This document shows positions 1 to 18,003 of a stretch of DNA of 64,000 bases, piece by piece. The stretch spans positions 62,001 to 126,000 of the forward strand of contig NZ_JAKQZG010000005.1 in the NCBI RefSeq assembly GCF_024359545.1. Direction: 5' to 3'. Under the pieces are notes generated by a model that saw only the letters and a list, made by a program, of their open reading frames with translations, searched no databases and had not been told where the DNA came from. A program made the translations under genes and the position numbers. The stretch is from Jiella marina. GTDB lineage: Bacteria > Pseudomonadota > Alphaproteobacteria > Rhizobiales > Rhizobiaceae. Positions within the stretch are counted from its first letter, which is position 1. Each line of letters begins with the position of its first letter.

Positions 1-358
1 CCGGGATCGCCTCACGGATCAGCGCGCGGCCCTTTTCCGTCGAATGCAGCAGATAGCGGCGCTTGTCGTCGGGATCGCGTTCGGTCGTGACGAGTCCGTG
101 CTTCTCCAGTCGCGAGATCACGCCCTTGGTGGTGGCCGCATCCATGGCGACGAGCCGTCCCAGCGCATTCTGGGAGATCGGTCCCGGTTCGGCGAAGAGT
201 CGGAACAGGGTCGAAAACTGGGTGGGCGTGAGCCCGCCGATCATCGACTTGGCGAAAATCGTCATGTGCCGCTGATAGGCCTTGCGCAGAAGGAAGCCGA
301 TCTGCTCGTCAAGCACGTAGCCAAGAAACGGTTCCTCTCCACCACTGCCGTCTGCCAC
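1..358 (-). CDS. MarR-family regulator, NicR-like (3' end outside window)
   Basis: Winged-helix repressor of the MarR family, reading leftwards off the window edge, so the C-terminus is missing. I translated it from the complement: it begins VADGSGGEEPFLGYVLDEQ, runs through LLRKAYQRHMTIF (dimer helix), LTPTQFSTLFRL, and the recognition helix and wing (TTKGVISRLEKHGLVTTERD, then PDDKRRY). No ATG is available; the GTG at 356-358 has an AAAAGGG ribosome site about nine bases upstream and is my chosen start. It is divergent from nicA, and the shared 212-base gap carries two perfect palindromes. In Pseudomonas putida a MarR protein (NicR) represses the nic genes, so the same role is inferred here. 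It resembles the second MarR protein at 13420 in this window. Confidence 0.85.
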   Translation of the reverse strand, partial: MADGSGGEEPFLGYVLDEQIGFLLRKAYQRHMTIFAKSMIGGLTPTQFSTLFRLFAEPGPISQNALGRLVAMDAATTKGVISRLEKHGLVTTERDPDDKRRYLLHSTEKGRALIREAIP

Positions 359-570: not shown

Positions 571-1107
571 ATGGATTGTTCGATCGAGATCCTCATGAAC
601 GGCAGGCCTCAGACGCTTGTCGTCGACGCGCACCGGACGCTCCTCGACGTGCTGAGATCCGATCTCGCGATCACCAGTCCGAAATATGGCTGCGGCTTGG
701 CTCAGTGCGGCTCCTGCACGGTTTTGATCGACGGGGCGCCGGCCAGAAGCTGCGTAATGCGTGCCGCCAAGGCCAATGGCGCTGCGATCACGACGCTCGA
801 AGGCCTTGCACACGCGCAGACCGGCGAACTCCATCCGGTTCAAAGGGGCTTCGTCGAAGCGGTCGGTGCCCAGTGCGGCTATTGCCTCAACGGGATGGTG
901 ATGACGGCGATCGCGCTTCTCAGGGAAAACCCGAATCCGGACGAAGGGGATGTGCGAGCGGCCCTGCGCCACAATCTCTGTCGCTGTGGAACCCACAAGG
1001 AAATCGTCGCCTCCGTGATGCGCGCTGCCGAGCTAATGCGTGAAGAGGCGCAAGCGCAGACGAGCCCCGACGGAACGTCTTCTGCGGGCGAAGGAGCCTC
1101 CGCGTGA
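571..1107 (+). CDS. nicA: Nicotinate dehydrogenase, small [2Fe-2S] subunit
   Basis: Electron-transfer subunit of the molybdenum hydroxylase that turns nicotinate into 6-hydroxynicotinate. The 178-residue protein has the xanthine-dehydrogenase small-subunit layout: a plant-ferredoxin-like domain with the first cluster ligands in YGCGLAQCGSC and a distal Cys (residues about 44-69), then a helical domain with CGYC and CRCG (about residues 107-142) for the second cluster. The ATG at 571 has an AGGGTG ribosome site upstream. It overlaps nicB by four bases (GTGA), so the two are translationally coupled. Without nicB and nicC nearby it could be any small subunit of this superfamily, such as isoquinoline oxidoreductase; the neighbours make nicotinate the best reading. 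Confidence 0.85.
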   Translation: MDCSIEILMNGRPQTLVVDAHRTLLDVLRSDLAITSPKYGCGLAQCGSCTVLIDGAPARSCVMRAAKANGAAITTLEGLAHAQTGELHPVQRGFVEAVGAQCGYCLNGMVMTAIALLRENPNPDEGDVRAALRHNLCRCGTHKEIVASVMRAAELMREEAQAQTSPDGTSSAGEGASA

Positions 1108-4100
1108 GCGGCGATTACGGGCGCATACTGGTCTTTCGCGACGAGGCCGGCCCGCGGGAAGTCTTTCTTTCCTTCGACACGTCCGGAGTCGCCATCGGCT
1201 TCAACGGTCATGTCGACCTCGGGACGGGCATAGAAACCGCCTTGTCGCAGATCGTCGCGGAGGAACTCGATCTGCCGCTGGATCGGGTCCGCATGGTGCT
1301 CGGCGACACGGAAAAGACGCCGAACCAGGGCCCGACAATCGCCTCGGAAACCATTCAGATCACCGCTGTACCGCTCCGCCATGCAAGCGCCCAGATCCGC
1401 CGGGAACTCGCGATCCGGGGCGCGCGGCGTCTGAATGCGCCGGCGGCGCGGGTGACCCTCGAAGATGGCGAGGTGCGCTGGAAGGACACGCATGTCCCCT
1501 ATGAGAGCCTGATCGCCGGCGAGGAGATCGCCCTCAGGCTCGACACCGAAACGCCGGTAAAGAATCCGAAGGACTACAAGATCGTCGGCCAGTCGGCGGC
1601 GCGCGTGGACCTGCCGGCGAAGGTGACCGGTCGCTATCCTTATGTCCACGACGTCTTCGTCGAGGGGATGCTCCACGGCCATGTGATCCGTCCGCCCTAT
1701 GCCGGCCGCGACAGTGGTGCCTTCATTGGCAAGAGCCTGGTGTCCTTCGACGAGGCCGCCGTGGGCCACATGCCGGGTTTCGTTGCCGTGGTGCACCGGG
1801 GCGACTTCCTCGGCGTGGTCGCGGAGCGGGCCGACCAGGCGGAGGCGATCGCCGAGGCGCTGCCGGTGGAATGGCTGATGCCGCCGGATCTGCCGGACAT
1901 GACGAGTATCGCCGATACCGTCAGAAGCCAGCCCGCGACGCCGCGCAACTGTGACAGCACCGGCGATTTCGCGCGGGGCATCGGCGAGTGCGACGTCCGG
2001 CTGACGCGCAGCTACGTCTGGCCCTATCACATGCACGGCTCGATCGGCCCGTCCTGCTCCATCGCCGACTGGAATGCGGGCGAGCCGATCGTCTGGTCGG
2101 GCACGCAGAACCCGCACATGCTGCGCGCCGACCTCGCCAATCTGATGCAGATCGACGAGACCCTGATCGACATTCGTCGCTATCAGGCCGCCGGCTGCTA
2201 TGGCCGCAATTGCGCCGACGACGTCTGCGGCGATGCGCTGCTGCTGTCGCAGGCCGTCGGCCGTCCGGTGCGGGTCCAGCTCACGCGCACGCAGGAACAT
2301 CTCTGGGAACCGAAGGGTGCGGCTCAGGTGATGGACGTCGAGGGCGGACTGCTGGGCGGCCGCTTCCACGCCTACAGCATGGACAGCTGGTATCCCTCCA
2401 ATCGCGGGCCCAACCTTGCCCTGCTTCTCACCGGCCGGATCACGCCCGAGCCGCGGCCATCGGATATGGGCGACAGGACGATCATCCCGCCCTACGCCAT
2501 CCCCCACAAGGCGATCACCGTTCACGACATGGCGCCGATCGTGCGCGCCGCCTGGATGCGCGGCGTCTCGGCTCTGCCGAACACCTTCGCCCATGAATGC
2601 TTCGTCGACGAATTGGCCTTTGCGGCGGGGAGAGACCCTGTCGCCTTCCGGCTTGACCACATCGACGATCCGCGCACCGCGCATCTCATTCGCGAATGCG
2701 CCGAACGGGGCGGCTGGGAAGAGCGCAGCGAACCGCGAAAGCGGCGCGAGGGGCGCATGGCCTACGGCCAGGGCTTTGCCTTCGCGACCTATGTCCATGG
2801 CGCATTTCCCGGAACGGCGGCAGCGGCTTCGGCCTGGGTCTGCGATGTCGCGGTCGACATGGAGACGGGCGAGGTCTCGCTGACCCGTGTCTTCGTCGCC
2901 CAGGATCAGGGCCTCGTCATCAATCCCGACGGCGTGCGCCACCAGATCCATGGCAACGTCAACCAGACCGCCAGCCGCGTTCTCAAGGAAGAACTCAGTT
3001 TCGACGAGATCGCCGTCACGCCGAAGAGCTGGGCGACCTATCCGCTGCAGACCTTTCCCGAGGCGCCGGCGATCGAGACCATGCTGGTCGAACGATCGGG
3101 CGATCCGGCACTCGGTGTCGGCGAGAGCGCGGCGGTACCGGCGGCGGCAGCCATCGCCAATGCGATCTTCGACGCGACCGGCGTGCGCATGCGCGAGGCG
3201 CCGTTCACGCCGGAGAAGATGCGGGCAGCGCTGGGAATCTCGGCGTCCCGGCCCGCTCTCGTCGGTCCCGTAGCGAAGACCGGTTGGCGTGACAGGCTGG
3301 GGGGCAAGGGGCTTTCGAAGAGGTTCGGTCTGGCGGCCTTGCTTGGCGGCTCGCTGACCGCGGGAGCGCTGGCGCTGCCCATCCATCGCGCGATCCCGCC
3401 CGCGGCAGCCCCGCAAGCATCCAGCTTTTCTTCGGACATTCTCGCCAGAGGCAGGGAGGTCTTTGCCGCCGGCAACTGCGCCGACTGCCACACCGTCAAG
3501 GGCGGTGCGGCGAATGCCGGCGGCCTTGCCATGGAAACCCCCTTCGGCACGATCTATACGTCCAATATCACGCCGGATCCGAAGACGGGGCTCGGCGAAT
3601 GGAGTTTTGCGGCCTTCGACCGAGCCATGCGCAAGGGCGTCTCGCGGGATGGCACCAGCCTCTATCCGGCCTTTCCCTACACGTCCTTTGCCAAGATGAG
3701 CGGCGACGACATGTTCGCTCTCTACGCCTTTCTTCAGACCCTGGAACCCGTCGAGCAGGAAACGCCGAAGGCCGCGATGGCGGTGCCCTTCAATCTGCGG
3801 CCGCTCAACGCCGTCTGGAAGGCCGTCTATCACGACGAGACGCAACTCGCGCCCGACGCGGAGAAGAGCCCCGCCTGGAACCGCGGACGCTATCTGGTCC
3901 AGGCGACCGGCCATTGCAGCGCCTGCCACTCGCCGCGCAACGCGCTCGGGGCCGAGAAGGGCGGGGCGGCCGCGCTGTCCGGAGCGCCGGTCAAAGGGTG
4001 GTACGCGCCGGCCATCGCGGGAGAGAAGGCCGCGAGCTTCGGCTGGAGCGAAGAGAGCTTCTATCAGTATCTGAGAACGGGGGTCGCTGGCGATCTCGCC

Positions 4101-4556
4101 GCGGCGGCCGGTCCGATGGCCGAGGTCGTTTCCAATCTCAGGGAACTGCCCGATTCCGACATTCGGGCCATGGCGACCTATCTCGCCTCGATGCAAACGG
4201 GTCAGGCGGAGGCCTTGCCCGTCAATGCCGCTGCCGCCGTGGCGTCTCCCGACGATCCCGCGACCGAAGCGCCCCCTCTGGACGGCGTGCATCGGCTGTT
4301 CGAAAGCGCTTGTGCCGTTTGCCATGAGCCGGCGATCGGTGGTCTCGCGACCGCCGCTCAGGTGCCGCTGTCACGCAGTCCGGCGGTGCGATCGCAGAAC
4401 GACGAAGCCCTGCGCACCGTCATCCGCGAGGGCATCGAAGCACCCTTGAACCTGAAGACCCGCGACATGCCGGGTTTCGGCAAGGAACTCACCGAAGCTC
4501 AGATCGACGCGCTTGCGCGCTACGTTCGGGCCCGTTACGGGGCGGCCGCACCATGA
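1104..4556 (+). CDS. nicB: Nicotinate dehydrogenase, molybdopterin subunit fused to three cytochrome c domains
   Basis: Catalytic subunit of nicotinate hydroxylase, 1150 residues from a GTG start inside the nicA stop. Residues 1-730 approximately are the molybdopterin-binding aldehyde/xanthine oxidase-type region (for example LGTGIETALSQI, QNPHMLRADLAN, GVGESAAVPAAAAI near the end, typical of the active-site Glu loop). A single hydrophobic stretch at about 735-760 (GLAALLGGSLTAGALALP) is followed by three haem-binding CxxCH motifs: CADCH, CSACH and CAVCH. This matches the two-component NicAB architecture known from Pseudomonas, in which electrons leave through the cytochrome domains to the respiratory chain instead of NAD. 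The hydrophobic stretch probably anchors the protein with the haem part in the periplasm; that topology is inferred. Confidence 0.88.
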   Translation: MSGDYGRILVFRDEAGPREVFLSFDTSGVAIGFNGHVDLGTGIETALSQIVAEELDLPLDRVRMVLGDTEKTPNQGPTIASETIQITAVPLRHASAQIRRELAIRGARRLNAPAARVTLEDGEVRWKDTHVPYESLIAGEEIALRLDTETPVKNPKDYKIVGQSAARVDLPAKVTGRYPYVHDVFVEGMLHGHVIRPPYAGRDSGAFIGKSLVSFDEAAVGHMPGFVAVVHRGDFLGVVAERADQAEAIAEALPVEWLMPPDLPDMTSIADTVRSQPATPRNCDSTGDFARGIGECDVRLTRSYVWPYHMHGSIGPSCSIADWNAGEPIVWSGTQNPHMLRADLANLMQIDETLIDIRRYQAAGCYGRNCADDVCGDALLLSQAVGRPVRVQLTRTQEHLWEPKGAAQVMDVEGGLLGGRFHAYSMDSWYPSNRGPNLALLLTGRITPEPRPSDMGDRTIIPPYAIPHKAITVHDMAPIVRAAWMRGVSALPNTFAHECFVDELAFAAGRDPVAFRLDHIDDPRTAHLIRECAERGGWEERSEPRKRREGRMAYGQGFAFATYVHGAFPGTAAAASAWVCDVAVDMETGEVSLTRVFVAQDQGLVINPDGVRHQIHGNVNQTASRVLKEELSFDEIAVTPKSWATYPLQTFPEAPAIETMLVERSGDPALGVGESAAVPAAAAIANAIFDATGVRMREAPFTPEKMRAALGISASRPALVGPVAKTGWRDRLGGKGLSKRFGLAALLGGSLTAGALALPIHRAIPPAAAPQASSFSSDILARGREVFAAGNCADCHTVKGGAANAGGLAMETPFGTIYTSNITPDPKTGLGEWSFAAFDRAMRKGVSRDGTSLYPAFPYTSFAKMSGDDMFALYAFLQTLEPVEQETPKAAMAVPFNLRPLNAVWKAVYHDETQLAPDAEKSPAWNRGRYLVQATGHCSACHSPRNALGAEKGGAAALSGAPVKGWYAPAIAGEKAASFGWSEESFYQYLRTGVAGDLAAAAGPMAEVVSNLRELPDSDIRAMATYLASMQTGQAEALPVNAAAAVASPDDPATEAPPLDGVHRLFESACAVCHEPAIGGLATAAQVPLSRSPAVRSQNDEALRTVIREGIEAPLNLKTRDMPGFGKELTEAQIDALARYVRARYGAAAP

Positions 4557-4630
4557 AGCTTGCTGGCGGGACCGACCTCCGGGGCCGTGTCTGGTGGACA
4601 CCGACGGGGTTTACAGTCTCGGGATAATTG

Positions 4631-5810
<1,180 letters not shown>

Positions 5811-5826
5811 CGGCATCGTTTCGGTC

Positions 5827-5859
5827 CCGTCTGCGGAGAAACCGTCGTTCCGCAGACGG
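5827..5859 (+). terminator. Hairpin after nicC
   Basis: CCGTCTGCGGA (5827-5837) and TCCGCAGACGG (5849-5859) form a perfect 11-base stem with an 11-base loop, starting 17 bases after the nicC stop. There is no clear U-tract, so it may act as a transcript-end stabiliser or a weak terminator. Confidence 0.55.
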
Positions 5860-5889
5860 CGTCCAGATCCGCAATCATGCACATATGCG

Positions 5890-5921
5890 ATCCCGCCCGA
5901 TCAATCCTGGTTGGGCGGGAT
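5890..5921. terminator. Hairpin between convergent nicC and FRG genes
   Basis: ATCCCGCCC (5890-5898) pairs with GGGCGGGAT (5913-5921), with a TTT following in the plus direction. It overlaps the last codons of the minus-strand FRG gene, so it can serve only as a terminator for the plus-strand nic transcript or as a bidirectional barrier. Confidence 0.45.
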
Positions 5922-6761
5922 TTGCTGTTGTGCGCTCCAGCCCGCATCGTTGGCGCGCAGATGGGCGTTTTCCGGGCTCATATAGTGACGCGCGAGCCAA
6001 CGGCTGAGCCCGTCCAGCCCCGGAAACAGCACCCGTTCGGTGACGTTTGCCTGGTCGAGCTTGTCGCGGATCTCCCATTTGAGCCGATGGTCGATGACGA
6101 GCTTGCGGGCGAGTTGCGGCCGGGCGGCGAGCCAGGCTGCAAGGTCCAGCGTCGCGGTCGAGGTCATCGAAAACACGGCGAACTGGTTCGTGATCCGGTC
6201 GTCGAGCGAAGGCGGCTCGAAGAAGCAGACCCATTCCGCACCGTGCCGCTCCGACTTCTGGTCGAGTTCCTGTAGGGAGCTGCTGTATTCCCGCAGGAGC
6301 TCCGCGGTCAGGACGTGCGAGCCGTCCCGCGTCAAGAGATCCCTGAGCCCCTCTGGTAAAGACTGGGCGATGCGCCGGTAGTCCGCCATGATGATGGCGC
6401 CGTCCCGGTCGTAGAGCGAGACTTGCGCCGTCGCAAAATGGAGCGCGACGTAGGGCGAGTAGGTCCAGTCCAGGAGACGGGTCGGCAGGCCATGATGCTG
6501 GCCGAGCGCCAGCCAGTTCCAGTCGTCGTCATGGGGCACCATGCTGCGATGCGCGTATTTGCGGAAATTCCGGAGCACGTGTCTTTCCAGTTCCCAGTAG
6601 CGCCCGCCCAGGCGCTTCAGAGAAGGGATGAGATCGTACTCCCCCTGGCCGACGCCGCGGAAGAGGAACGGGGAACGGAAGCGACCGAGATCGCCGTCCC
6701 ACATGTCACCGAACAGATGCTTCTGTAGCTCCGCCCAACTGCTGATGAAGACGGTCTGCAT
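5901..6761 (-). CDS. FRG-domain protein
   Basis: Protein of about 286 residues with the FRG domain, named for a conserved Phe-Arg-Gly. Here it is FLFRGVGQG at about residues 33-41, with the accompanying LPTRLLDWTYSPYVALHFA block near residues 91-109. The domain has no settled biochemical activity and appears in many mobile or defence-associated proteins. I place the start at the ATG ending at 6761 because AAAGGA lies five to six bases upstream; another ATG lies five codons earlier at 6776. It is a lone minus-strand gene between two plus-strand pyridine operons and shares no operon with them. Its presence here looks like an insertion, and I cannot assign a role. Confidence 0.75.
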   Translation of the reverse strand: MQTVFISSWAELQKHLFGDMWDGDLGRFRSPFLFRGVGQGEYDLIPSLKRLGGRYWELERHVLRNFRKYAHRSMVPHDDDWNWLALGQHHGLPTRLLDWTYSPYVALHFATAQVSLYDRDGAIIMADYRRIAQSLPEGLRDLLTRDGSHVLTAELLREYSSSLQELDQKSERHGAEWVCFFEPPSLDDRITNQFAVFSMTSTATLDLAAWLAARPQLARKLVIDHRLKWEIRDKLDQANVTERVLFPGLDGLSRWLARHYMSPENAHLRANDAGWSAQQQIPPNQD

Positions 6762-6959
6762 CGCGGTCCTTTCCATCGAATTCGGACTCGCCGCGGCGAC
6801 GAGCAGCCGAATGCAGGGTTACGGTCTTCGTCGACCGATTCCAACCTTTGCCTTGCCTTTGACCTCGCTGGTGCCGCCGGTGAGCGGGTTCCGGCGGCAG
6901 CCGACGATCCGGTCACATATCGGCCTTGGGCAAATTCAACAGGGCACATCCAAAAAAGA

Positions 6960-7067
6960 AGCGTATACGCTCTGAAGGTTCCAATCGCATTCTGCAGCTT
7001 CAAGTCGTAGATGGTTGAATAATGGGCTTTCCGAGCGGATTTTTCGCACACCAGACAAAAATTTGGT
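6960..7067. promoter_or_regulatory. Upstream region of the nadC operon with operator-like sites
   Basis: The gap 6762-7261 holds no gene I can support. It is AT-richer than its surroundings from about 6930 to 7150. AGCGTATACGCT (6960-6971) is a perfect 12-base palindrome with the same GTATAC centre as the nicA and nicC sites. AATTTGGT (7060-7067) is identical to one half of the 511-526 palindrome. These suggest that the operon beginning at nadC answers to the nic regulator or to its relative encoded at 13420. Confidence 0.5.
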
Positions 7068-7261
7068 CAAAAAACGCACTTGCCGTTTTCATATGACTGT
7101 GAACTAATAGCGTAGTCACTGTAGATCGCGGCGCGTTTGTGTTTTGCGGTGCAACATTTGCGATTGCCTGCCAGGGCAAATCCTTCATTGCTTCGCGACG
7201 ACTTGAGCTGGCGTCGCGGAACCCTTTGTCTCCTCGAACGAATGTCTCGGAGTCCTGCTGA

Positions 7262-8098
7262 ATGTATGATCGTTTTGTCGCGCGAAAGCTTATCGATCAG
7301 TGGCTCATCGAAGACATCGGCTGCTTTGACCTGACCGCTCAGTTGATGGTCGATCCCACGTCGCGCACGACCTTCTACATGAATGCCCGCGAACCGATGA
7401 CCCTCGCCGGTGTCGAGGTCGCGGCCGAGGTCTTTCGCCACTACGAACCGGAATGCGAGGTCAAGGTGCGCGCCCATGACGGCGATCGGGTGGAAAAGGG
7501 CGCGGTGCTGCTCGTCGTCTCTGGTCCCGGCCAGGCGCTGCTGACCGCCGAGCGCACCGCTCTGAACATCGTCCAGCGTCTTTCCGGCATTGCGACGGAA
7601 ACGGCAAAATACGTCGACGCCATTGCCCACACCAAGGCCCGTCTGCTGGATACGCGCAAGACGACGCCTGGACTTCGCATGCTCGAAAAGCACGCGGCCG
7701 TCTGCGGCGGGGCGCTGAACCACCGGCTTGGCCTCGATAGCGGCGTGATGCTCAAGGACAATCACATCTCGGTCTGCGGCAGCATCGCCAAGGCTGTCGA
7801 GATGGCCCGCAAGCAACTTCCGGCCCTGACCAAGATCGAAGTCGAGTGCGACCGGATCGAGCAGGTTCGCGAGGCGCTCGACGCCGGCGCCGACGTCATC
7901 ATGCTCGACAACATGGAAAACGCGGCGATGGCCGAGGCCGTCGAACTTGTCGCGGGCCGGGCATTGCTCGAGGCATCCGGCGGCATCCGCCTCGATACGA
8001 TCGCCGGCAAGGCCGAAACCGGTGTCGACTTCGTGTCGACCAGCAGGCCGTTCCAATCGGCGCCGGCCGTCGATATCGGGCTCGATGACGCTGCCTGA
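7262..8098 (+). CDS. nadC: Nicotinate-nucleotide pyrophosphorylase (quinolinate phosphoribosyltransferase)
   Basis: Decarboxylating transferase: quinolinate plus PRPP gives nicotinate mononucleotide, CO2 and pyrophosphate. The 278-residue protein has the family's blocks: RTALNIVQRLSGIAT, LDTRKTTPGLR, the LNHR of GGALNHRLGL, LKDNH, and LEASGGIRLDTI. The Arg, Lys and His residues that hold the quinolinate carboxylates in known NadC structures (in RTAL, TRKT, NHR and MLKDN) are all present. The final strand reads FVSTSRPFQSAPAVDIGLDD, where ordinary NadC has a form like SVGALTHS, so this is a divergent copy. It opens a five-gene operon with a nucleotide phosphorylase fusion and a TRAP importer and has no nadA or nadB beside it, which argues for a catabolic rather than a biosynthetic role. 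Confidence 0.88.
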   Translation: MYDRFVARKLIDQWLIEDIGCFDLTAQLMVDPTSRTTFYMNAREPMTLAGVEVAAEVFRHYEPECEVKVRAHDGDRVEKGAVLLVVSGPGQALLTAERTALNIVQRLSGIATETAKYVDAIAHTKARLLDTRKTTPGLRMLEKHAAVCGGALNHRLGLDSGVMLKDNHISVCGSIAKAVEMARKQLPALTKIEVECDRIEQVREALDAGADVIMLDNMENAAMAEAVELVAGRALLEASGGIRLDTIAGKAETGVDFVSTSRPFQSAPAVDIGLDDAA

Positions 8099-8123
8099 GC
8101 GACAACGAGGCCGGAGTCGCGCG

Positions 8124-10229
8124 ATGCAGACCGGAACCCTCTTTTACGTCGTGGGCCCGAGTGGAGTCGGCAAAGACACGCTGATTTCCGAGGGCATGAA
8201 GGCCCTCGGCCCCTCCGGTCGATACGTCCAGGTTCGTCGGATGATCACGCGGCCCGCCGGGATTGGCGAGGACCACCAGCCGGTCAATGATGAAACCTTT
8301 GCCGCGATGGTGGAGGACGGCCGTTTCCTCCATCACTGGCAAGCCCACGGGCTTCGCTACGGGTTGCCGATCGGCATTCTCGATGATCTCAAGGCCGGAC
8401 GGAACGTCATCGCCAATGGCTCGCGTGGCGCGATCCCGGACCTTGCGGGCATCGTCGACCGCTTCGTGATCGTGGAGATCACCGCGCCTCCCGCCATTAT
8501 CCGCGAGCGGCTCATGGCCCGCGGTCGCGAGAGCGCCGAGGAGATCGAGCAGCGGCTTGCCCGCACCGTCGAGCCGCTGCCGTCGAACCTGGATGTCGTG
8601 ACGGTGGTCAACGATACCGCTCTCGACGAAGCGGTGACCCGTCACGTCGCAGCGCTCGATCATCATGCGTCGCGGCTCTTCCTCAAACGCGTTCCGATCG
8701 CCTCGGCCCGGCGGCGGATGGCTTATCTTCGCGAGGACAACCCGCTGGTCGATGCGGCGGCCCTGGCGGGTGAGGGACGGATCGAGATCACCCATGCCGG
8801 CACGGGTGCGGTCCGGGCCGAGCTCGATCTCGTCGAGCCCTGCGACATGCTTCGCCCCGATGAGATCGGCCTGTCGCGTGAAGTCTTCGAGGCCTTGGGC
8901 GTCGGAAACGGTTCGCTCGTCTCGGTCGCGCGCACGCCCTCTCCGAGCAGCCGGAAGATCCTGCGGCGCAAGATCGCCGGCGAGAGGCTGCGCGCCGACG
9001 ATTACGAGACCCTGTTCGGCGATATCGTCGACGGTCGATATCCTGATGGCGAGACGGCCGCCTTTCTTCTCAAGGCGATCCAGTCTCTCGACGACGAGGA
9101 AGCGATCGCAGTCGCGAAGGCGCGGTGCCGGTTCGGACCGCGCATCGACTGGGGCTCGCCCAGCGTCGTCGACAAGCATTCGCTCGGTGGTATCCCGGGA
9201 AGCCGCATCACCCTCATCGTCGTGCCGATCGTCGCTGCGGCAGGGCTCCTGATGCCGAAGACCTCCTCGCGTGCCATCACCTCGGCATCCGGTACGGCCG
9301 ACGTGATGGAAGCGCTGTGCAGGATCGATCTGTCCTTTGCGGATGTCGATCGCGTCGTGCGCGAGACAGGCGGGTGCATCGCCTGGAACGGGCGGCTCAA
9401 TCATTCCGTGCTCGACGATGTGGTCAATGCCATCACGCGACCGCTCGCCCTCGACAGCAACACCTGGTCGGTTGCCTCGATCCTGTCGAAGAAGTGGACT
9501 GCCGGATCGACCCATGTGGTCATCGACATGCCCTACGGGCCAAATGCCAAGCTGAAGACGAGGGCCGAGGCCGACGAGTTGGGCCGGATCTTCGAGCGTG
9601 TGGGTGCGGGTCTCGGCATGACGGTGCGGGCGTTCGCCACCGATGGCGGCAATGCGATCGGCAACGGAATCGGACCCGCGCTGGAATTGCGCGACGTGAT
9701 GAAGGTGCTCGATAACGCGCCGGACGCGCCTGCCGATCTCCGAAACAAGGCGCTGTTCTTCGCCAGTCAGATCCTCAGCTTTTCACCCGAGCACGGCAGC
9801 CATGCCGAGGCGCGCAGGACGGCCGAGGAGATCCTCGTCTCGGGGCGGGCCAGAGCAAAGCTCGATGAGATCGCCGCCGCGCAGGGTGCTCACAGCCCGA
9901 TCATGCCGGGACCGTTCACCAGGACTATCGCGGCGCCGCGCGACGGGATGGTCGAGGCGGTCGACGGTTGGCATATCGCGGGCATCGCACGGCGTGCCGG
10001 CGCCCCTCACGACAAGTCGGCGGGCGTTGATCTGAAGGTCGGGCCTGGTCACGAGGTCTTCAAAGGCGATCCGCTCTTCATGATCCATTCCGGCAGCGTC
10101 GCCAGTCTCGAGCGGGCCGTCGCCGCCGCCACGCCGGAGACCGGCATCACCCTTTCATCAAGCGGCATCAGGCCGTCGCACATTCCCATCGACCCAAGGG
10201 AGGCACCGCCAGCCCCGACCGTGACATGA
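8124..10229 (+). CDS. Fusion: ribose 1,5-bisphosphate kinase (PhnN-like) + AMP/thymidine phosphorylase-family enzyme
   Basis: A 701-residue two-enzyme fusion. Residues 1 to about 180 form a guanylate-kinase-like PhnN domain with the P-loop VVGPSGVGKDTL. PhnN makes PRPP from ribose 1,5-bisphosphate and ATP. Residues from about 185 onward match the roughly 500-residue AMP-phosphorylase-type branch of thymidine phosphorylases, with DKHSLGGIPGSR for phosphate binding, TSSRAITSASGTADVMEAL, and a C-terminal domain ending near residue 690. AMP phosphorylases cleave a nucleoside 5'-monophosphate with phosphate to a free base and ribose 1,5-bisphosphate, which is the substrate of the other half. The ATG at 8124 lies 25 bases after nadC with ACGAGG upstream. 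The reading frame is open back to 7947, but that part is nadC sequence in another frame. The base released is not known; context suggests nicotinate. Confidence 0.85.
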   Translation: MQTGTLFYVVGPSGVGKDTLISEGMKALGPSGRYVQVRRMITRPAGIGEDHQPVNDETFAAMVEDGRFLHHWQAHGLRYGLPIGILDDLKAGRNVIANGSRGAIPDLAGIVDRFVIVEITAPPAIIRERLMARGRESAEEIEQRLARTVEPLPSNLDVVTVVNDTALDEAVTRHVAALDHHASRLFLKRVPIASARRRMAYLREDNPLVDAAALAGEGRIEITHAGTGAVRAELDLVEPCDMLRPDEIGLSREVFEALGVGNGSLVSVARTPSPSSRKILRRKIAGERLRADDYETLFGDIVDGRYPDGETAAFLLKAIQSLDDEEAIAVAKARCRFGPRIDWGSPSVVDKHSLGGIPGSRITLIVVPIVAAAGLLMPKTSSRAITSASGTADVMEALCRIDLSFADVDRVVRETGGCIAWNGRLNHSVLDDVVNAITRPLALDSNTWSVASILSKKWTAGSTHVVIDMPYGPNAKLKTRAEADELGRIFERVGAGLGMTVRAFATDGGNAIGNGIGPALELRDVMKVLDNAPDAPADLRNKALFFASQILSFSPEHGSHAEARRTAEEILVSGRARAKLDEIAAAQGAHSPIMPGPFTRTIAAPRDGMVEAVDGWHIAGIARRAGAPHDKSAGVDLKVGPGHEVFKGDPLFMIHSGSVASLERAVAAATPETGITLSSSGIRPSHIPIDPREAPPAPTVT

Positions 10230-10317
10230 CGAGAATCTGCGGCATCGACCCGCCGCAGAGGCCTCCCTCGCAATGCCTCGTCTGCCGTCACTCCACCAAC
10301 AGGAAGAGTTCATCGAC

Positions 10318-11301
10318 ATGCCAAAGTCTATTCTGAAGTCCTCGGCCGTGTTCGCAGGCATCCTTGCGGCCGGCTTCTCGGCGACCAGCGCCAAGGCGGA
10401 AAACTATACGCTGTGCGGTGCGAGCCCCGGCGGCCTGTGGGCCCTGCTTGGCGCCGGTGTCGACGCTGCGGTCAAGCAGGAAGAGCCCGACTCGACGGTG
10501 ACCTATCAGACCTCGAGCGGCGGTTTTGCCAACATCGTCCAGATGGCGCAGGGCAATTGCGACATGTCGATCGTCCATCTGGGCGAGGCGGTGATCGCCT
10601 CGAAGGGCGAGACCCCCTTCCAGGAGCCGATGTCGGACTTCGCCGTCGTCGCCGTCCTCTACAACTGGGCGCCGATGCAGTGGCTGATGGACGAGGACTT
10701 CGCCGAGGAGCACAGCATCTCCTCCATCGCCGACATGAAGGGCACGCCCGTCAATCTCATCGTCAACAAGAAGGGCATTCTGCCGAGCATCCTCGCCGAG
10801 GCCTCGCTGGACAAGCTCGGCATCACCTTCTCGGACATCGAGTCGAATGGCGGGTCGATCCAGTATCAGGGTTCCCAGACCGCCGAGGAACTGATGAAGG
10901 ACGGGCGCGGCGACATCTGGACCAACGCCATGTTCATCGGCACGGGCTCGATCGGCTCGATCGCCGAAAGCGTCGACCTTCGCCTTCTCTCGGTGCCGGA
11001 CGACGTCATCGCCTACATGAGCGAGACCTACGGTTCGGTGCCCTACACGATCCCGGCCGGCAGCTATGACTGGCAGGAAGAGGAGATCAAGACATTCGGT
11101 GCCCAGGCGGCGCTGATCGTGCCGAAGTCGGATTCGCCGGAAGAGGTCGAGAACCTGACCAAGGCGCTGCTCGACCACATCGCCGAACTGCAGAACGTGC
11201 ACTCTTCGATGAAGGCGCTGACGCCCGAGGTGATGCAGTCCGCCAAGGGACTTCCCTATCACGAGGGCGCCCTCGCAGCCTACAAGGCGGCCGCTGAATA
11301 A
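10318..11301 (+). CDS. TAXI-family TRAP transporter solute-binding protein
   Basis: Periplasmic binding protein of a TRAP importer, 327 residues. It opens with a Sec signal peptide (SILKSSAVFAGILAAG, cleavage after SAKA), then YTLCGASPGGLWALLGAGVD, the TAXI N-terminal block, and ends with the usual helical tail (PYHEGALAAYKAA). The ATG at 10318 has AGGAAGAG before it. It stands 88 bases after the phosphorylase fusion and 113 before the membrane subunit, in the same orientation. TAXI-TRAP systems mostly carry carboxylates. The ligand is not readable from sequence, but a pyridine carboxylate would fit the operon. Confidence 0.88.
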   Translation: MPKSILKSSAVFAGILAAGFSATSAKAENYTLCGASPGGLWALLGAGVDAAVKQEEPDSTVTYQTSSGGFANIVQMAQGNCDMSIVHLGEAVIASKGETPFQEPMSDFAVVAVLYNWAPMQWLMDEDFAEEHSISSIADMKGTPVNLIVNKKGILPSILAEASLDKLGITFSDIESNGGSIQYQGSQTAEELMKDGRGDIWTNAMFIGTGSIGSIAESVDLRLLSVPDDVIAYMSETYGSVPYTIPAGSYDWQEEEIKTFGAQAALIVPKSDSPEEVENLTKALLDHIAELQNVHSSMKALTPEVMQSAKGLPYHEGALAAYKAAAE

Positions 11302-11414
11302 GGTTCCGCCGCAACTTTCGGGCGGCGGCGCAGGTTCGCCGTCCGAAGCCGCTACGATCCTTTTCGCGCCACCCGCTCGCCTGGGCGAGCAGGTTTCTCC
11401 CGGAGTCGACCGCC

Positions 11415-13340
11415 ATGATGGGGTTCTTCAACAGCCTGTTCAATGTCGGCGGGCGTCGTGACCTTGCGGGTCCGCTGGCGATGGCCGTCAAGGCTTATGC
11501 AGCGGCCGTGGGGCTGTGGGTGCTGTGGGAAACGACATTCGCCCGGGTCGACGCTCTGGCCGCAACGGCAGTGTTTCTCTGCCTCATCCTGCCGCCGTCC
11601 TTCATCATGGTGCGCGCCGGCCGCTCGGCGAGCGAGAGGACGGTTCCCTGGTACGACTGGATCCTGGTGGCGATCAGTCTGGTGACCGCCGTCTATTTCA
11701 TCTCCCAGACCGAGGTCATCGCGACCCGCATCAGCCTTTTCCTGCCGCTGACGACGGTCCAGATGGCGGCTGCGCTGGCGATCGTGCTGCTGGCTCTGGA
11801 AATCACCCGACGGACCGTCGGTCTGTTCCTGATGCTGATCGTCGTCGCATTCACGGCCTACAACCTCTTCGGTCACCTGATTTCCGGCCCGCTGAGCCAC
11901 GGCTACATCAGCCTCAATCACTTCCTCGACGTGAATGTCTTTACCGGCGACGGCCTGTTCGGCGTCCCGGTGCGCGTCGCCGCGACCTATGTGTTCCTGT
12001 TCGTGATGTTCGGCACGTTTCTGGAGAAGGCCGGCGGTGGCGAGTTCTTCTTCCGCGTTGCCGCGGCGATCGCAGGGCGCTCCCATGGCGGCCCGGCGAA
12101 GATCGCCGTCATCTCCTCGGCGCTGTTCGGCACCATGTCCGGCAGCCCGACCTCCGACGTCGTCACCACCGGTTCGATCACCATCCCGATGATGAAGCGG
12201 CTCAGCTATTCGCCGCGCCTCGCCTCGGCCGTCGAGGTCGCCGCTTCGACCGGCGGAAGCATTCTGCCACCGGTGATGGGCTCGGCGGCCTTCATCATGG
12301 CGGAATATACGGGGATCAGCTACGTCACCATCGTCGTCGCCTCGATCATCCCGGCGATCCTCTACTACGCCTGCATCATGTTGCAGGTGCATCTGCGCTC
12401 CGAGCGCCTGGCCCTGACCGCTCTTTCGAGCGAAGAGGTGCCGTCGCTATGGACGACGTTGCGCGAGGGCTGGGTCTACATCGTCCCGCTCGTCGTCCTC
12501 GTCATTGCGCTGCTGCAGGGCTATTCGCCGACCAGGGTTGCGGTTTTCGCGACGGTGTCCGTCGTCGTCGCCTCGTGGTTTCGCGCCGGGCACCGGCTCG
12601 GTCCGGTCGGCATCTATGACGGGCTTGCGGCGACCACGATCCGCATGCTCGGCGTGACCGGCGCCTGCGCGGCGGCCGGCCTCGTCATCGGCGGCATCAC
12701 GATGACCGGTCTCGCCATGAAATTCTCCTACATCACCTTCGCTCTTGCCGGCGACAACATGGCGATCGCGCTGCTTCTGAGCGCTGCGGTGACGATCCTT
12801 CTCGGTCTCGGCATGCCGACACCCAGCGCTTACGTCCTGGCGGCGGTGCTGATCGGGCCCACGCTCGTCAGCGACTTCCAGATCCCGCTTCTGAACGCGC
12901 ATCTCTTCCTGATGTATTTCGCGGTGCTGTCCGCCATGACCCCGCCGGTCGCGGTGGCGGCCTATGCCGCGGCGGCGATTTCGGATGCCAATCCGATCGG
13001 CATCGCGCTCAGCGCCTGCAAGCTCGCGCTGGCGGCCTTCGTGCTTCCCTTCGCCTTCGTCTATGCGCCGAGCATTCTGGCTCCGGGCTTCGAGATGAAC
13101 ACGATCGTCCAGATCACTACCGTCTGCCTCGGAACGATATTCCTCGCGATCGGGGCCGAAGGTTTCCTGCGCCGCAGTCTCGGGCGAGGCGAGAGGGCGC
13201 TGGTCTTCGTTGGCGGACTCATGATGTTCACGCCGAGCTATCTCATTTCGGTCGTCGGCGTCGCCATGGCAGCTCCCGTGGTCTATCTAGTCCTTGCCCG
13301 GACGCGAAAGGTCGGTGCGCTCGAAAGCGTCGAGCCATGA
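11415..13340 (+). CDS. TRAP transporter fused permease (DctQM type)
   Basis: Membrane component of the TRAP importer, 641 residues, with the small (DctQ) and large (DctM) subunits fused as is usual with TAXI proteins. The first 180 residues contain four hydrophobic helices; the remainder shows the repeated DctM architecture with the conserved turn SALFGTMSGSPTSDVVTTG and its repeat counterpart LLGLGMPTPSAYVLAAV. It works with the binding protein just upstream to bring an anionic substrate in with sodium or protons. Two ATGs adjoin at 11415 and 11418; either may be used. Confidence 0.9.
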   Translation: MMGFFNSLFNVGGRRDLAGPLAMAVKAYAAAVGLWVLWETTFARVDALAATAVFLCLILPPSFIMVRAGRSASERTVPWYDWILVAISLVTAVYFISQTEVIATRISLFLPLTTVQMAAALAIVLLALEITRRTVGLFLMLIVVAFTAYNLFGHLISGPLSHGYISLNHFLDVNVFTGDGLFGVPVRVAATYVFLFVMFGTFLEKAGGGEFFFRVAAAIAGRSHGGPAKIAVISSALFGTMSGSPTSDVVTTGSITIPMMKRLSYSPRLASAVEVAASTGGSILPPVMGSAAFIMAEYTGISYVTIVVASIIPAILYYACIMLQVHLRSERLALTALSSEEVPSLWTTLREGWVYIVPLVVLVIALLQGYSPTRVAVFATVSVVVASWFRAGHRLGPVGIYDGLAATTIRMLGVTGACAAAGLVIGGITMTGLAMKFSYITFALAGDNMAIALLLSAAVTILLGLGMPTPSAYVLAAVLIGPTLVSDFQIPLLNAHLFLMYFAVLSAMTPPVAVAAYAAAAISDANPIGIALSACKLALAAFVLPFAFVYAPSILAPGFEMNTIVQITTVCLGTIFLAIGAEGFLRRSLGRGERALVFVGGLMMFTPSYLISVVGVAMAAPVVYLVLARTRKVGALESVEP

Positions 13341-13419
13341 AGTCCTGCTTCGAGAGCAGGGGATTCCCTGTCCTTGTCGGCGTTCGGATCGCTTCGCGGG
13401 TTCATGGAGGCAAGGCAGC

Positions 13420-14010
13420 ATGAAGGGGCCGCCACCAAACGATCCGAACGGGTCAAGATACGGGCACCCGGGGGAGCCGGAAAGCGAGACTTCCTCAGAC
13501 AGCGCAGAAGCTCTCGACGAGAAGCAGCCGGACGGGGTGATCTCGCGGGCGGCGGAATCGGGCCGGTCCCTGACGGGCACCATGGATTACGTGTTCACCG
13601 AGCAAGTCGGCTATCTGCTGCGCCGTGCCTACCAACGGCATCTGGCGATCTTCCAGAGCAATGCCGCCATCGAGAACCTGACGGCAGTGCAGTTTTCGAC
13701 GCTCTGCGCACTGGACGATGGCGTTAGCCGATCCCAGGCCGAACTGGTGAAGGCGACGGGAGTCGATCAGGCGACGATCCGGGGAATAGTTGAGCGCCTC
13801 AAGGCCCGCGGGCTGATTGCGCTGTCAAAGGATCCGGACGACGGGCGCAAGGTCATTATCACGATCACCAAGGAGGGGCGGGATGCACTCCGGTCTATGA
13901 CGCCCTGCGCGATCAAGGCGAGCGAGGACACGCTCGGGCCCCTCAATCCGGCCGAGCGCCTCGCGCTTCTCCACACCTTGCGCAAGATCGCGGACATCGG
14001 TCAGGGCTGA
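13420..14010 (+). CDS. MarR-family regulator, relative of the nic regulator
   Basis: Winged-helix regulator of 196 residues closing the nadC-TRAP operon. The first 50 residues are hydrophilic and disordered-looking; the MarR core follows: LLRRAYQRHLAIFQ, LTAVQFSTLCAL, then ATIRGIVERLKARGLIALS and the wing KDPDDGRKV. The LLR(K/R)AYQRH-x-x-IF and QFSTL signatures are shared with the regulator at 1-358, so the two are relatives controlling adjacent pyridine loci. The frame is open back to 13294, but the ATG at 13420 has a GGAGG site nine bases upstream and starts after the permease stop. Confidence 0.88.
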   Translation: MKGPPPNDPNGSRYGHPGEPESETSSDSAEALDEKQPDGVISRAAESGRSLTGTMDYVFTEQVGYLLRRAYQRHLAIFQSNAAIENLTAVQFSTLCALDDGVSRSQAELVKATGVDQATIRGIVERLKARGLIALSKDPDDGRKVIITITKEGRDALRSMTPCAIKASEDTLGPLNPAERLALLHTLRKIADIGQG

Positions 14011-14107: not shown

Positions 14108-15172
14108 TCAAAGCACGATGAGGTCGCTGCGATCCCATTGCATCGCGACCGGAGTTCCGACTTCCAGCTCGCCAGCGTTCCCGCGCATGACGATCGCCTT
14201 GTATTCCTGTCCGCCGCTTTCGACCAAGTACGTGCTCTGGCTGCCGGAGAACATCCGGCGCGTGATCGTACCGGCAAGGTGGCTGGAGCTTTGGCTGGAA
14301 CCGGACTCGGCCAGTGCGGCGGACGGGACGAGCCGAACCCGCTCCGGACGGATGGCCAGTCTGAGGTCGCCATTGGCGGGGCGTGCGTCTGAGGGCAGGT
14401 CGATGGCCTCACCGTTTTGGAGGCGCAGACGTGTACCGTCGAAGGTGCCGGCAAAGATGTTTGCGTCTCCGAGGAAGGTTGCCGCGAATTCGCTCTTCGG
14501 CCGGTCGTATATCTCTTCCGGCGCACCCTCCTGGACGATCCGGCCGTTGTTCAGAATCCCGATCCGATCGGAGATCGACAACGCCTCGTCCTGGTCGTGG
14601 GTGACGAAGATCGTGGTGACGCCGACTTCCCGCTGAATGCGCTTCAGCTCCACCTGCATGTCGGTGCGTAGCGCCTTGTCGAGGGCCGACAGCGGCTCGT
14701 CGAGGAGCAGGACGCGCGGTTTCGTGACGATGGCGCGTGCCAGGGCAACCCGCTGGCGCTGTCCGCCGGAAAGCTGGTGCGGCCGCCGATCCGCGAGATG
14801 ACCGAGCTGGACAAGCTCCAGCGCGTCGGCCACATCCCGCCGAACCGTCTCGCCTTTTTCCCCGCGCACCTGAAGGCCGAAGGCGACATTGCCCGCGACG
14901 CTCATATTGGGAAACAGCGCATAGTTCTGGAAGACCATGCCGATCCGCCGCTTGTTCACCGGCACGCTCTCGACCGCTTCGCCGCCGATGTGGATCGAGC
15001 CCTCGTCGGGAAACTCGAAGCCGGCGATCATGCGCAGTAGCGTCGTTTTCCCTGAACCGGACGGGCCGAGCAGCGCATAGAAGCCGCCGTCTTCGAACGA
15101 GATCGAGACATCGTCGACGGCCTTGTGGGCGCCGAAGGTGAGGGAGACGTTTCGAACTTCGACTCGGGCCAT
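14108..15172 (-). CDS. ABC transporter ATPase, PotA-like
   Basis: ATP-hydrolysing subunit of a spermidine/putrescine-type importer, 354 residues. Walker A is GPSGSGKTTLL (about residues 35-45), the ABC signature is LSGGQRQRVALARA, Walker B is VLLLDEPLSAL, and a C-terminal TOBE-like regulatory domain starts near residue 240. Its start overlaps the stop of the upstream permease by one base (TAATG), so it is the last gene of the seven-gene minus-strand operon beginning with gntR. Actual substrate unknown; see the operon's hydrolase and kinase. Confidence 0.92.
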   Translation of the reverse strand: MARVEVRNVSLTFGAHKAVDDVSISFEDGGFYALLGPSGSGKTTLLRMIAGFEFPDEGSIHIGGEAVESVPVNKRRIGMVFQNYALFPNMSVAGNVAFGLQVRGEKGETVRRDVADALELVQLGHLADRRPHQLSGGQRQRVALARAIVTKPRVLLLDEPLSALDKALRTDMQVELKRIQREVGVTTIFVTHDQDEALSISDRIGILNNGRIVQEGAPEEIYDRPKSEFAATFLGDANIFAGTFDGTRLRLQNGEAIDLPSDARPANGDLRLAIRPERVRLVPSAALAESGSSQSSSHLAGTITRRMFSGSQSTYLVESGGQEYKAIVMRGNAGELEVGTPVAMQWDRSDLIVL

Positions 15173-15963
15173 TACTGACTGCCTCCAAAGCGGAAGAATC
15201 TCGACACCACGAGCATCAGGCCCATCGAGAACAGGATGATGATCGTCGAGACGGCATTGATTTCGGGGGTGAAGCCCTTTCGGATCGCCGCGTAGATTTC
15301 GACCGGCAAGGTCGTCTGACCGGGCGTCGCGAGGAAATACGAAATGACGAACTGGTCGAACGACACGGCGAAGGCGAAGAGAGCGCCGGCGACGATGCCG
15401 GGCGCGATGCAGGGCAGGGTGACCTTCCAGGTGGTCTGCCAGCTTGATGCGCCGAGGGAGGCTGCGGCGTCTTCGAGGTCCCGCGAGAATGTCGCAAGGC
15501 GCGCCGAGACGACGATGATGACATAGGGCAGGGCGAGCGCGACGTGACCGAGCAGGATCGCGTGAAGGCCTCGCCCGATCCCCGTCCCGAAGAAGAAGAT
15601 CAGCATCGCGGTTCCCGAGATCAGCCAGGGGATGGCGATCGGCGGGAACAGAAGCGACTGGATCACGCGCTTGCCGGCAAAATCGTAGCGGAACAGGGCC
15701 AGAGAGGCCGCCGTGCCGAGAATCGTTGCGATGATCGTCGTCAGGACGGCGATCTTGAGCGAATTGAGGCTCGCCTCGATCAGCGAGTCATTGCCGCTGA
15801 GGGCCAGATACCACTCGGTCGTCCCCTCGAACGGCAGTTGGTAGAAGGGCGAGACGTTGAAGGACATCGCCGCCATGATCGCGAGCGGCAGGTAGAGGAA
15901 GAGGAGCACGAGGCCGATGTAAAAGCGGCCGAGCCCCGACAGAAAGGCGGGTGTGCGGATCAT
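15172..15963 (-). CDS. ABC transporter permease, PotC-like
   Basis: Inner-membrane permease of 263 residues with six predicted helices and the BPD_transp_1 cytoplasmic loop near the middle (DLEDAAASLGASSWQTTWKV, EAA-loop). It overlaps the other permease by four bases (ATGA) and the ATPase by one, showing translational coupling. It forms the heterodimeric channel with the gene at 15960. Confidence 0.9.
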   Translation of the reverse strand: MIRTPAFLSGLGRFYIGLVLLFLYLPLAIMAAMSFNVSPFYQLPFEGTTEWYLALSGNDSLIEASLNSLKIAVLTTIIATILGTAASLALFRYDFAGKRVIQSLLFPPIAIPWLISGTAMLIFFFGTGIGRGLHAILLGHVALALPYVIIVVSARLATFSRDLEDAAASLGASSWQTTWKVTLPCIAPGIVAGALFAFAVSFDQFVISYFLATPGQTTLPVEIYAAIRKGFTPEINAVSTIIILFSMGLMLVVSRFFRFGGSQ

Positions 15964-16823
15964 GCGGTTTTCCTCAGGACCGGCGCCGAGACGAGAAGGA
16001 TGACCAGCACGACGGCAAGAAGGATGAAGGAGAGAGCGGCACCCAAGGGCCAGTTGTAGACGGCGGTGAACTGATCCTCGATCACCGTGCCGTACAGCGT
16101 CCCGCCCCTTCCGCCGAGAATGCGCGGTTCCATGAACGAGCCGACGACCGGAATGAAGATCAGGGCCGATCCAGCCAGAACGCCCGGCAGGGCGAGGGGG
16201 GCGACGACGCGGCGGAGCGTAGTCAATCGTGACGCGCCGAGCGAACGAGCGGCCTCTATCAGCGCATCATCGATGGCCTGAAGGCTGAGATAGCAGGTCA
16301 GGACCATGTAGGGCAGGTAGGAGTGGACGAGCCCGATAACGACGGCCGGATAGGAGTACATGAGGTCGAAGGTGACCTCGAAGGGCAGAATGGAATTCAG
16401 GGCCGTGTCCAGTATTCCGCCCTCGCGCAGAACCATCGACCAGGAAAAGACGCGGACCAGCGAATTGCTCCAGAACGGCAGGATGACGAGCAGGAAGATC
16501 GCTTCCCGCGCCCGGCCCTTGAAGATCTTCGCGAGTACATAGGCTGCAGGAAAACCAACGAGGATGCAGATCAGCGTGACGACCAGTCCGAGCCGCAGCG
16601 AGCGCAGGAGGAGTGTCACGTAGAGCGGATCGGAGAAGAACGCCGCGTAGTTTTCCAGCGTCAGGGACGAGGATTGCTCGCTCGGCGACATCGAGGTCAG
16701 GAGCGAGAAATAGACCATCGCCGACAAGGGCAGGAAGATCGCCAGCGTCAGCCAGGCATAGGCCGGAAGAAGCAGCGGAAATGCCTTCCTGAGCCCGTTT
16801 TCTTGCGTCATGGTCGCCGCCAT
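15960..16823 (-). CDS. ABC transporter permease, PotB-like
   Basis: First permease of the importer, about 287 residues. It has an N-terminal cytoplasmic tail, six hydrophobic helices and the EAA-type loop ALIEAARSLGASRLTTLRRV. I choose the ATG ending at 16823 because an AAGGGACGAG site precedes it; the open frame continues to 16889 without a better start. The stop overlaps the PotC-like start. Confidence 0.87.
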   Translation of the reverse strand: MAATMTQENGLRKAFPLLLPAYAWLTLAIFLPLSAMVYFSLLTSMSPSEQSSSLTLENYAAFFSDPLYVTLLLRSLRLGLVVTLICILVGFPAAYVLAKIFKGRAREAIFLLVILPFWSNSLVRVFSWSMVLREGGILDTALNSILPFEVTFDLMYSYPAVVIGLVHSYLPYMVLTCYLSLQAIDDALIEAARSLGASRLTTLRRVVAPLALPGVLAGSALIFIPVVGSFMEPRILGGRGGTLYGTVIEDQFTAVYNWPLGAALSFILLAVVLVILLVSAPVLRKTA

Positions 16824-16918
16824 GGTTCTCGTCCCTTGCGGGCGTGGTGTCGAAAGAGCGGTTTGCTTTGATGGGAACGCCCCGGCCACCGGTCTGCCGG
16901 CGGCCGGGGCGTCGAGCC

Positions 16919-17971: not shown

Positions 17972-18003
17972 CGCATGTTTCCTTTCGATCGGTCGTGGCC
18001 GGT

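Follow-up and report, generated by a model that had tools for sequence, protein, structure and literature searches.

The chemistry of quinolinate phosphoribosyltransferase (NadC), of the ribose 1,5-bisphosphokinase PhnN and of nucleoside monophosphate (NMP) phosphorylases is established for these families. Nicotinate catabolism proceeds either in the oxidative order NicABCXDFE or in the reductive order through 6-hydroxynicotinate reductase (Hnr) and enamidase, and the known pathways begin at nicotinate. Here we describe a gene module in a 64,000-nucleotide stretch of the Jiella marina genome (assembly GCF_024359545.1, contig NZ_JAKQZG010000005.1, positions 62,001 to 126,000 of the forward strand; hereafter the window), in which nadC is followed by a gene for a fused PhnN-phosphorylase protein and which would place quinolinate upstream of these pathways. 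Genes of both catabolic routes neighbour the module, counting the window and its relatives together. In the C-P lyase pathway a ribosyl handle is likewise returned as phosphoribosyl pyrophosphate (PRPP) by PhnN; in the present module NadC would instead transfer the handle from PRPP, phosphorolysis would take it off again, and the bond broken would be C-C (decarboxylation) and not C-P. Quinolinate is likewise a bacterial substrate in Alcaligenes faecalis JQ191, which is reported to biodegrade quinolinic acid by a route said to start with ring hydroxylation and not with PRPP-dependent decarboxylation.

A phosphorylase of the same family and fold acts in the NMP (AMP) phosphorylase pathway of the archaeon Thermococcus kodakarensis, where, according to PMC9700705, the product is ribose 1,5-bisphosphate, which is converted to ribulose 1,5-bisphosphate and passed to Rubisco. 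PhnN acts on ribose 1,5-bisphosphate as well (PMC9700705). The module enzyme is instead fused to PhnN, lies beside nadC and has a changed base-side loop. Quinolinate salvage in Bordetella and streptococci, as presented in PMC11452294, shares NadC and quinolinate uptake with the module and often occurs without NadA; a Bug27-like binding protein is also found in some module loci. In that salvage nicotinate mononucleotide (NaMN) goes on to NAD, whereas the gene next to nadC in the module is proposed to cleave NaMN and feed catabolism.

In the window the module consists of nadC (7262-8098, plus strand), the fusion gene (ATG at 8124, with an alternative start at 8085, to 10229, plus strand), a TAXI-family TRAP solute-binding protein that is a candidate quinolinate binder (10273-11301, plus strand), a fused TRAP permease (11415-13340, plus strand) and, by family match, a MarR-family regulator (about 13537-14010, plus strand, with an open reading frame extendable to 13294). 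We consider it likely that this module converts external quinolinate to nicotinate for catabolism by way of recycled PRPP. External quinolinate would be imported by the TRAP system, or in relatives by a Bug27-like binding protein, an NMT1-type ABC importer or an MFS carrier. NadC would put the phosphoribosyl group from PRPP on the ring nitrogen, upon which the 2-carboxylate would be lost as CO2, giving NaMN and pyrophosphate. The phosphorylase half would convert NaMN and phosphate to nicotinate and ribose 1,5-bisphosphate, and the PhnN half would use ATP to turn the latter into PRPP. After pyrophosphate hydrolysis the net reaction would be quinolinate + ATP + H2O to nicotinate + CO2 + ADP + phosphate, with PRPP as a catalytic, traceless activating handle. 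Nicotinate would then enter NicABC/NicXDFE in the window organism and the Hnr/enamidase route in relatives. It is also likely, with slightly less assurance, that PRPP is a true catalytic cofactor of the decarboxylation, such that NadC, otherwise the final enzyme of NaMN synthesis by way of quinolinate, decarboxylates as the first catabolic enzyme, a NaMN-specific phosphorylase (a new activity) releases nicotinate and the fused PhnN recharges the handle. The gene content, the fusion, its conservation, its co-occurrence with nicotinate genes and the changed base-side loop are read directly from the DNA; the substrates and the direction of flux are predicted. The initial annotation had proposed such a quinolinate-to-nicotinate shunt from the window, and the genome evidence supports it: linkage to nadC, the presence of NicX or Hnr in nearly all genomes with the fusion, a score below the AMP phosphorylase model and altered base-side residues.

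The neighbourhood was examined in 87 loci (labelled L; genomes are labelled G), consisting of the best 80 of 172 from a signature scan of genome contigs, six others and the window, with genes called by codon usage and not by a standard gene finder. nadC directly adjoins the fusion gene in 70 of the 87 and lies one gene away in 12, namely 11 Cupriavidus-type loci with a MarR gene between and L055, where PhnN is split off as a separate frame. Four loci (L073, L078, L109, L111) are cut by a contig end and not assessable for nadC; 82 of the 83 others have nadC beside the fusion or separated from it by a single gene, L070 being the true exception. In 83 of 87 loci, two of them judged by eye, the phosphorylase frame includes the PhnN P-loop; the rest are L073 and L109 (cut), L055 (split) and L070, which is without it.

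Searching 385 genomes of the class at the protein level returned the full-length fusion in the window's genome and in G355, G065 and G381, and a match not covering PhnN in 55 further genomes. Plasmid records with the fusion come from Variovorax SRS16, Paraburkholderia 22B1P and Pacificitalea manganoxidans. A search without motifs, covering 398 genomes of the phylum, matched 44 of them, and the 30 loci read from these comprise five fused and 25 unfused genes. In this phylum sample nadC lies within 1.5 kb in 5/5 fused versus 0/25 unfused loci, and in the class sample in 3/3 fused loci besides the window versus 0/26 unfused loci (from the 55 genomes). Three genomes are common to both samples, leaving 48 distinct unfused loci. 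The proposition that every bacterial relative of the phosphorylase adjoins nadC was rejected, as none of these 48 has nadC within that distance. A chance neighbourhood was rejected as well, since the module recurs in many genera with differing importers and gene orders. It is spread over alpha-, beta- and gammaproteobacteria and is patchy: within the phylum sample it occurs in one genome of the same genus (G784), while the other 15 listed genomes of the same family include one with an unfused phosphorylase and 14 without a match. A PRPP synthase pattern was found beside 0/26 unfused genes; the pattern is untrustworthy, some plasmid records annotating such a gene, and nothing here rests on it.

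The PhnN half of the window protein scores 173.3 bits against TIGR02322 (cut-off 156) and carries the P-loop GPSGVGKD at 8154-8177. The phosphorylase half scores 582.1 bits against NF003338 (PRK04350; cut-off 434) and 456.6 bits against TIGR02645 (cut-off 434.6), and it misses the AMP phosphorylase equivalog TIGR03327 with 406.7 bits (cut-off 535). The AlphaFold2 model of the fusion is confident (predicted local distance difference test, pLDDT, 88.6; predicted template modelling score, pTM, 0.71), and its top Foldseek match is the AMP phosphorylase 4ga5, with a template modelling score (TM) of 0.89 by target. Residues were compared between 87 fused and 24 unfused phosphorylases in T. kodakarensis numbering, leaving out two of the 26 unfused class loci. 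Positions 168, 194-199, 203, 264 and 288, which we take to be the contacts to the 5'-phosphate and phosphate, are kept in both groups alike; in the fused group position 168 is Gly in 86 with one gap, 194-199 and 264 are invariant, 203 is Thr in 82 and Ser in five, and 288 is Lys in 82 and Arg in five.

The base side is different. All 87 fused proteins have Asn234, His239 and Asn247, where all 24 unfused ones have Gly, Leu and Ile, respectively; Thr250 (82/87) stands against Glu (24/24) and Trp260 (85/87) against Gln (24/24). Position 236 is Arg or Lys in 86/87 fused proteins and mixed in the unfused group (His 13, Arg 7, others 4); since Arg236 thus also occurs in seven of 24 unfused proteins, the discriminating residues are His239, Asn234 and Asn247. 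In the window this fusion-clade signature reads CIAWNGRLNHS (9375-9407, plus strand), and its residues were placed near the base by sequence alignment with 4ga5. Because the 80 scanned loci were picked by two motif patterns (approximately positions 228-235 and 236-245), the invariance at those positions partly reflects the selection; the patterns do not cover Asn247, Thr250 and Trp260. Among the eight fused proteins found motif-free (window, G355, G065, G381, G784, G709, G774, G653), Asn234, His239 and Asn247 are present in 8/8, Ala232 in seven and Trp260 in six, and position 236 is Arg in seven and Asn in one. Asp256, presumably the proton donor to the leaving base, is found in 79/87 fused and 24/24 unfused proteins, and its occasional loss fits NaMN because a pyridinium nucleotide requires no proton donor. 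The basic residues of the base-side loop are consistent with a carboxylated base, and NaMN is the predicted substrate. An alternative that we regard as unlikely is that imported quinolinate serves only NAD synthesis, with the fusion cleaving AMP, CMP or UMP and PhnN supplying PRPP to NadC. PhnN does produce PRPP, which suits this alternative; the base-side residues, unlike those of unfused relatives, and the missed AMP phosphorylase cut-off speak against it.

Links to nicotinate breakdown bear on the same alternative. At least one core nicotinate-degradation gene is found in the examined flanks of 24/87 loci. NicB-like genes occur in 12 loci, window included, from Jiella, Rhodoplanes, Pseudomonas typographi, Cupriavidus, Comamonadaceae, Bosea and relatives, and Oxalobacteraceae; two Cupriavidus loci have NicB together with NicF, NicX, NicD and NicE, and the NicX and NicE of L064 match 7cn3 (E 7.4e-123) and 4fq7 (E 1.2e-114), respectively. 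A 508-residue protein assigned to Hnr is encoded in 12 loci (L050, L067, L069, L077, L086, L088, L091-L093, L107, L108, L115); among the 25 records listed for its plasmid homologues, which are 62-69% identical, 16 carry the name 6-hydroxynicotinate reductase and the others are hypothetical or unannotated, and the L050 copy gave no Pfam or NCBIfam match at E 0.001. An amidohydrolase is present in seven loci, the L049 copy being closest to enamidase 2vun (E 3.7e-109). The module is therefore linked to two different routes that share nicotinate and 6-hydroxynicotinate, NicB/NicC/NicXFDE and Hnr/enamidase. A UPF0280-like protein accompanies the reductase family in 12/12 loci, often with an AA_synth (PF06684) protein.

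Whole genomes show the same association. Fifty genomes with the fusion were compared, made up of the window's, three from the class search and 46 hand-picked through the 80 scanned loci; the 34 loci left out were 30 titled metagenome-assembled genomes, one second locus of an included genome and three other isolates. NicX is found in 32/50, Hnr in 21/50 and at least one of the two in 49/50, against 87/385 genomes in the class background and 17/55 genomes with the unfused phosphorylase; a Fisher test on these counts is only indicative, since the background covers a single class, many genomes with the fusion belong to the beta- or gammaproteobacteria, and related genomes are not independent. By our own reading of match positions, the module nadC has NicX or Hnr no further than about 10 kb away in 11/50 genomes (G000, G385, G404, G407, G408, G418, G419, G420, G423, G428, G429), where a crude and likewise only indicative estimate for 12 kb expects about 0.25 by chance. 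Such almost universal co-occurrence argues against use of quinolinate for NAD alone. Together with the 24 loci that have a core gene in their flanks, it also answers the possibility, named in the initial annotation as a ground for abandoning the shunt, that the operon always lies far from nic genes in relatives: it does not.

The window NadC scores 320.6 bits against TIGR00078 (cut-off 198.4), contains both quinolinate phosphoribosyltransferase (QRPTase) domains (PF01729, PF02749) and, in alignment with 1x1o and 3gnn, keeps the core motifs ER, TRKT, NHR, KxNH and LDN, which we take to be active-site motifs. Its gene is the sole QRPTase_C match in the whole genome (5.08 Mb, 99% complete). The absence of nadA from the vicinity, noted earlier, extends further, as NadA was not found anywhere in the Jiella marina genome with a search whose control was positive in 12 of 14 named genomes. 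A single nadC without detected NadA is a point for the NAD salvage alternative; a nicotinate phosphoribosyltransferase gene is present elsewhere in this genome. Across the fusion genomes NadA is present in 33/50, and 27 of these 33 have at least two full-scoring nadC genes and six a single one; the 17 NadA-negative genomes have one full-scoring nadC in 16 cases and two in G389. These counts exclude second matches scoring 114-120 bits, which were regarded as ModD-like, and two that scored 21-25 bits. Another nadC is thus already available in 27/33 NadA-positive genomes, which counts against NAD salvage as the purpose of the module: where NaMN is already made from aspartate, an additional NadC with a dedicated importer and PRPP regeneration would presumably bring little benefit unless its product had another destination. 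Where NadA is missing, NAD synthesis may be a further role of the module NadC.

A NadC tree of 60 proteins was built from a hand-picked 48 of the 82 module copies and 12 of 13 other copies, L121 being left out; one of the latter rows, C_L120, is the module copy of L044 itself and not another copy. Nine of the other copies group together with good support, and the 48 module copies, that of the window among them, all fall on the opposite side. The exceptions are C_L128, the second copy of G423, which lies among the module copies, and C_L119 (G355), whose long branch arises basally on the module side. This separation, together with the variety of importer types among loci, would also suit a module in which a different pyridine or similar 2,3-dicarboxylate, rather than quinolinate, is processed by NadC and the phosphorylase. 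We judge that highly improbable, as the window NadC is far above the curated cut-off with its core motifs kept, and the products would need to suit nicotinate enzymes of two different pathways.

The import of quinolinate is predicted from the transport genes. In the window the TAXI binding protein scores 139.1 bits against TIGR02122 (cut-off 84.35), with the same gene in relatives, and the permease 580.1 bits against TIGR02123 (cut-off 320.65); their TRAP system is the presumed quinolinate importer. Nothing on the ligand of the window's TAXI protein came to light, the literature not having been searched for it by name. In 71/87 loci an importer-type gene is found no more than about five genes away, of TTT type in 26, NMT1-type ABC in 20, TAXI-TRAP in 15, MFS in eight and MFS with NMT1 in two. 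The binding protein beside the Variovorax SRS16 fusion is closest to Bug27 (2qpq, E 2.6e-136); the other TTT-type binding proteins were linked to it only by clustering. Quinolinate is bound in vitro by Bug27 and Bug69 with submicromolar affinity, and bug27 beside nadC and phnN in Variovorax and Jezberella was interpreted in 2024 as NAD metabolism or biosynthesis (PMC11452294). That interpretation, and the use of Bordetella NadC for quinolinate salvage (same source), are further points for the NAD salvage alternative. The word 'phosphorylase' is absent from the text of PMC11452294, so the fused half is not discussed there; the fusion gene is also labelled phnN in records H1 and H3.

A further explanation is that internal NaMN is the source from which the fusion releases nicotinate, perhaps aided by a protein of the FRG family, and that quinolinate is no growth substrate or is derived from tryptophan inside the cell. 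An FRG-domain gene, a recurrent module neighbour recognised by domain match, lies in the window at 5901-6776 (minus strand), and such genes occur in 22/87 loci (phmmer E up to 1e-5) in two subgroups about 30% alike: the window, L033, L034, L038-L043, L056, L058, L063, L066, L070, L076, L077, L079, L082, L084, L086, L087 and L113. The family has been assigned to the ADP-ribosyltransferase (ART) superfamily, with NADase activity proposed as a possibility (PMC9503650), which would suit such turnover. A search for 3-hydroxyanthranilate dioxygenase was without match and its control was equally silent, so an internal source of quinolinate keeps some weight. The presence of an own nadC in nearly every assessable module and of importer-type genes near most fusions opposes internal turnover, and we hold it to be very unlikely. 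In the module loci the FRG protein may guard or sense the levels of pyridine nucleotides. Its predicted structure was poor (pLDDT 66.0), gave no fold match at E up to 0.001 and was not used.

Several observations weigh against the conversion of external quinolinate to nicotinate. There is no core nicotinate gene in the examined flanks of 63/87 loci, and 16/87 loci have no importer-type gene within about five genes; in three of these, L050, L073 and L109, the sequence stops near the fusion. The sole tested quinolinate binder of this context is of TTT type, and the window has a TAXI TRAP system. In L070 the phosphorylase lies beside NicAB, and neither nadC nor the PhnN half was found in the 20-kb locus. 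Acetobacter garciniae (L081) is the one fusion genome of the 50 with neither NicX nor Hnr. The NicX matches include distant homologues (34-45% identity; the window's 44%), some of which are maybe not 2,5-dihydroxypyridine dioxygenases. Finally, the NadA-negative genomes (17/50) could keep nadC for NAD salvage.

The enzymes of the proposed quinolinate-to-nicotinate route come from known families and its ribosyl-handle logic has a precedent in the C-P lyase pathway, while no description of the combined route was found. A literature search, with most subscription journals outside its scope, listed no title on the conversion of quinolinate to nicotinate by NadC and a phosphorylase, in keeping with the earlier statement that no described pathway of this form is known, and neither 'nicotinate mononucleotide phosphorylase' nor 'NaMN phosphorylase' appeared as a term in the papers listed. 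If true, the route would introduce NaMN phosphorylase as an enzyme activity, provide a way of degrading quinolinate, which is a neuroactive metabolite of tryptophan, and show PRPP in catalytic use in place of its consumption. A nadC gene alone would then be no proof of NAD synthesis, the module copy being an extra one in most NadA-positive fusion genomes.

Upstream of the module the window encodes a nicA-like 2Fe-2S subunit (571-1107, plus strand; named from family and context, no equivalog model being met) and a nicB-like molybdopterin and cytochrome c subunit (1104-4556, plus strand; named from domains and context) of nicotinate hydroxylase, followed by nicC for 6-hydroxynicotinate 3-monooxygenase (4668-5810, plus strand; closest solved relative 5eow, E 5.5e-163). 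Homologues of nicF, nicX, nicD and nicE lie just upstream of the window on the minus strand (L132), and together with nicABC they make the oxidative nicotinate pathway look complete. The gene content given in the initial annotation (nicAB-nicC, nadC, the phosphorylase/PhnN fusion, the TRAP importer and MarR) is present as described. Its placement of the operon adjacent to nicAB-nicC holds for the neighbourhood and needs amending in detail, as the minus-strand FRG gene, unmentioned earlier, intervenes; the nadC unit is therefore separate from nicABC and has its own start. A second MarR-family regulator, of the same cluster as that at 13537-14010, is cut by the left window edge (1-358, minus strand). 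After the module, and outside its conserved part, an ABC importer is encoded at 14108-18421 (minus strand), with an ATPase bearing a TOBE domain, two permeases and a solute-binding protein.

Some relatives show further features. The clade phosphorylase of L070 (9317-10852, Comamonadaceae 2FH) lies near NicAB, a Bug27-like protein and an FRG gene, with one nadC and NadA elsewhere in the genome. Caballeronia sordidicola PAMC 26633 has two nadC-fusion modules in one genome (L100 and L101). In five Pseudomonas loci (L047, L048, L051, L053, L065) an AA_kinase and PUA protein resembling glutamate 5-kinase directly follows the fusion. A protein with a weak SIR2_2 match (E 6.2e-6) is encoded beside the fusion in L037 (10321-11523, minus strand; G065), and a 403-residue frame near the fusion in G709 (L135) is similar to it by eye; with FRG, these would make two kinds of putative NAD-consuming neighbours.

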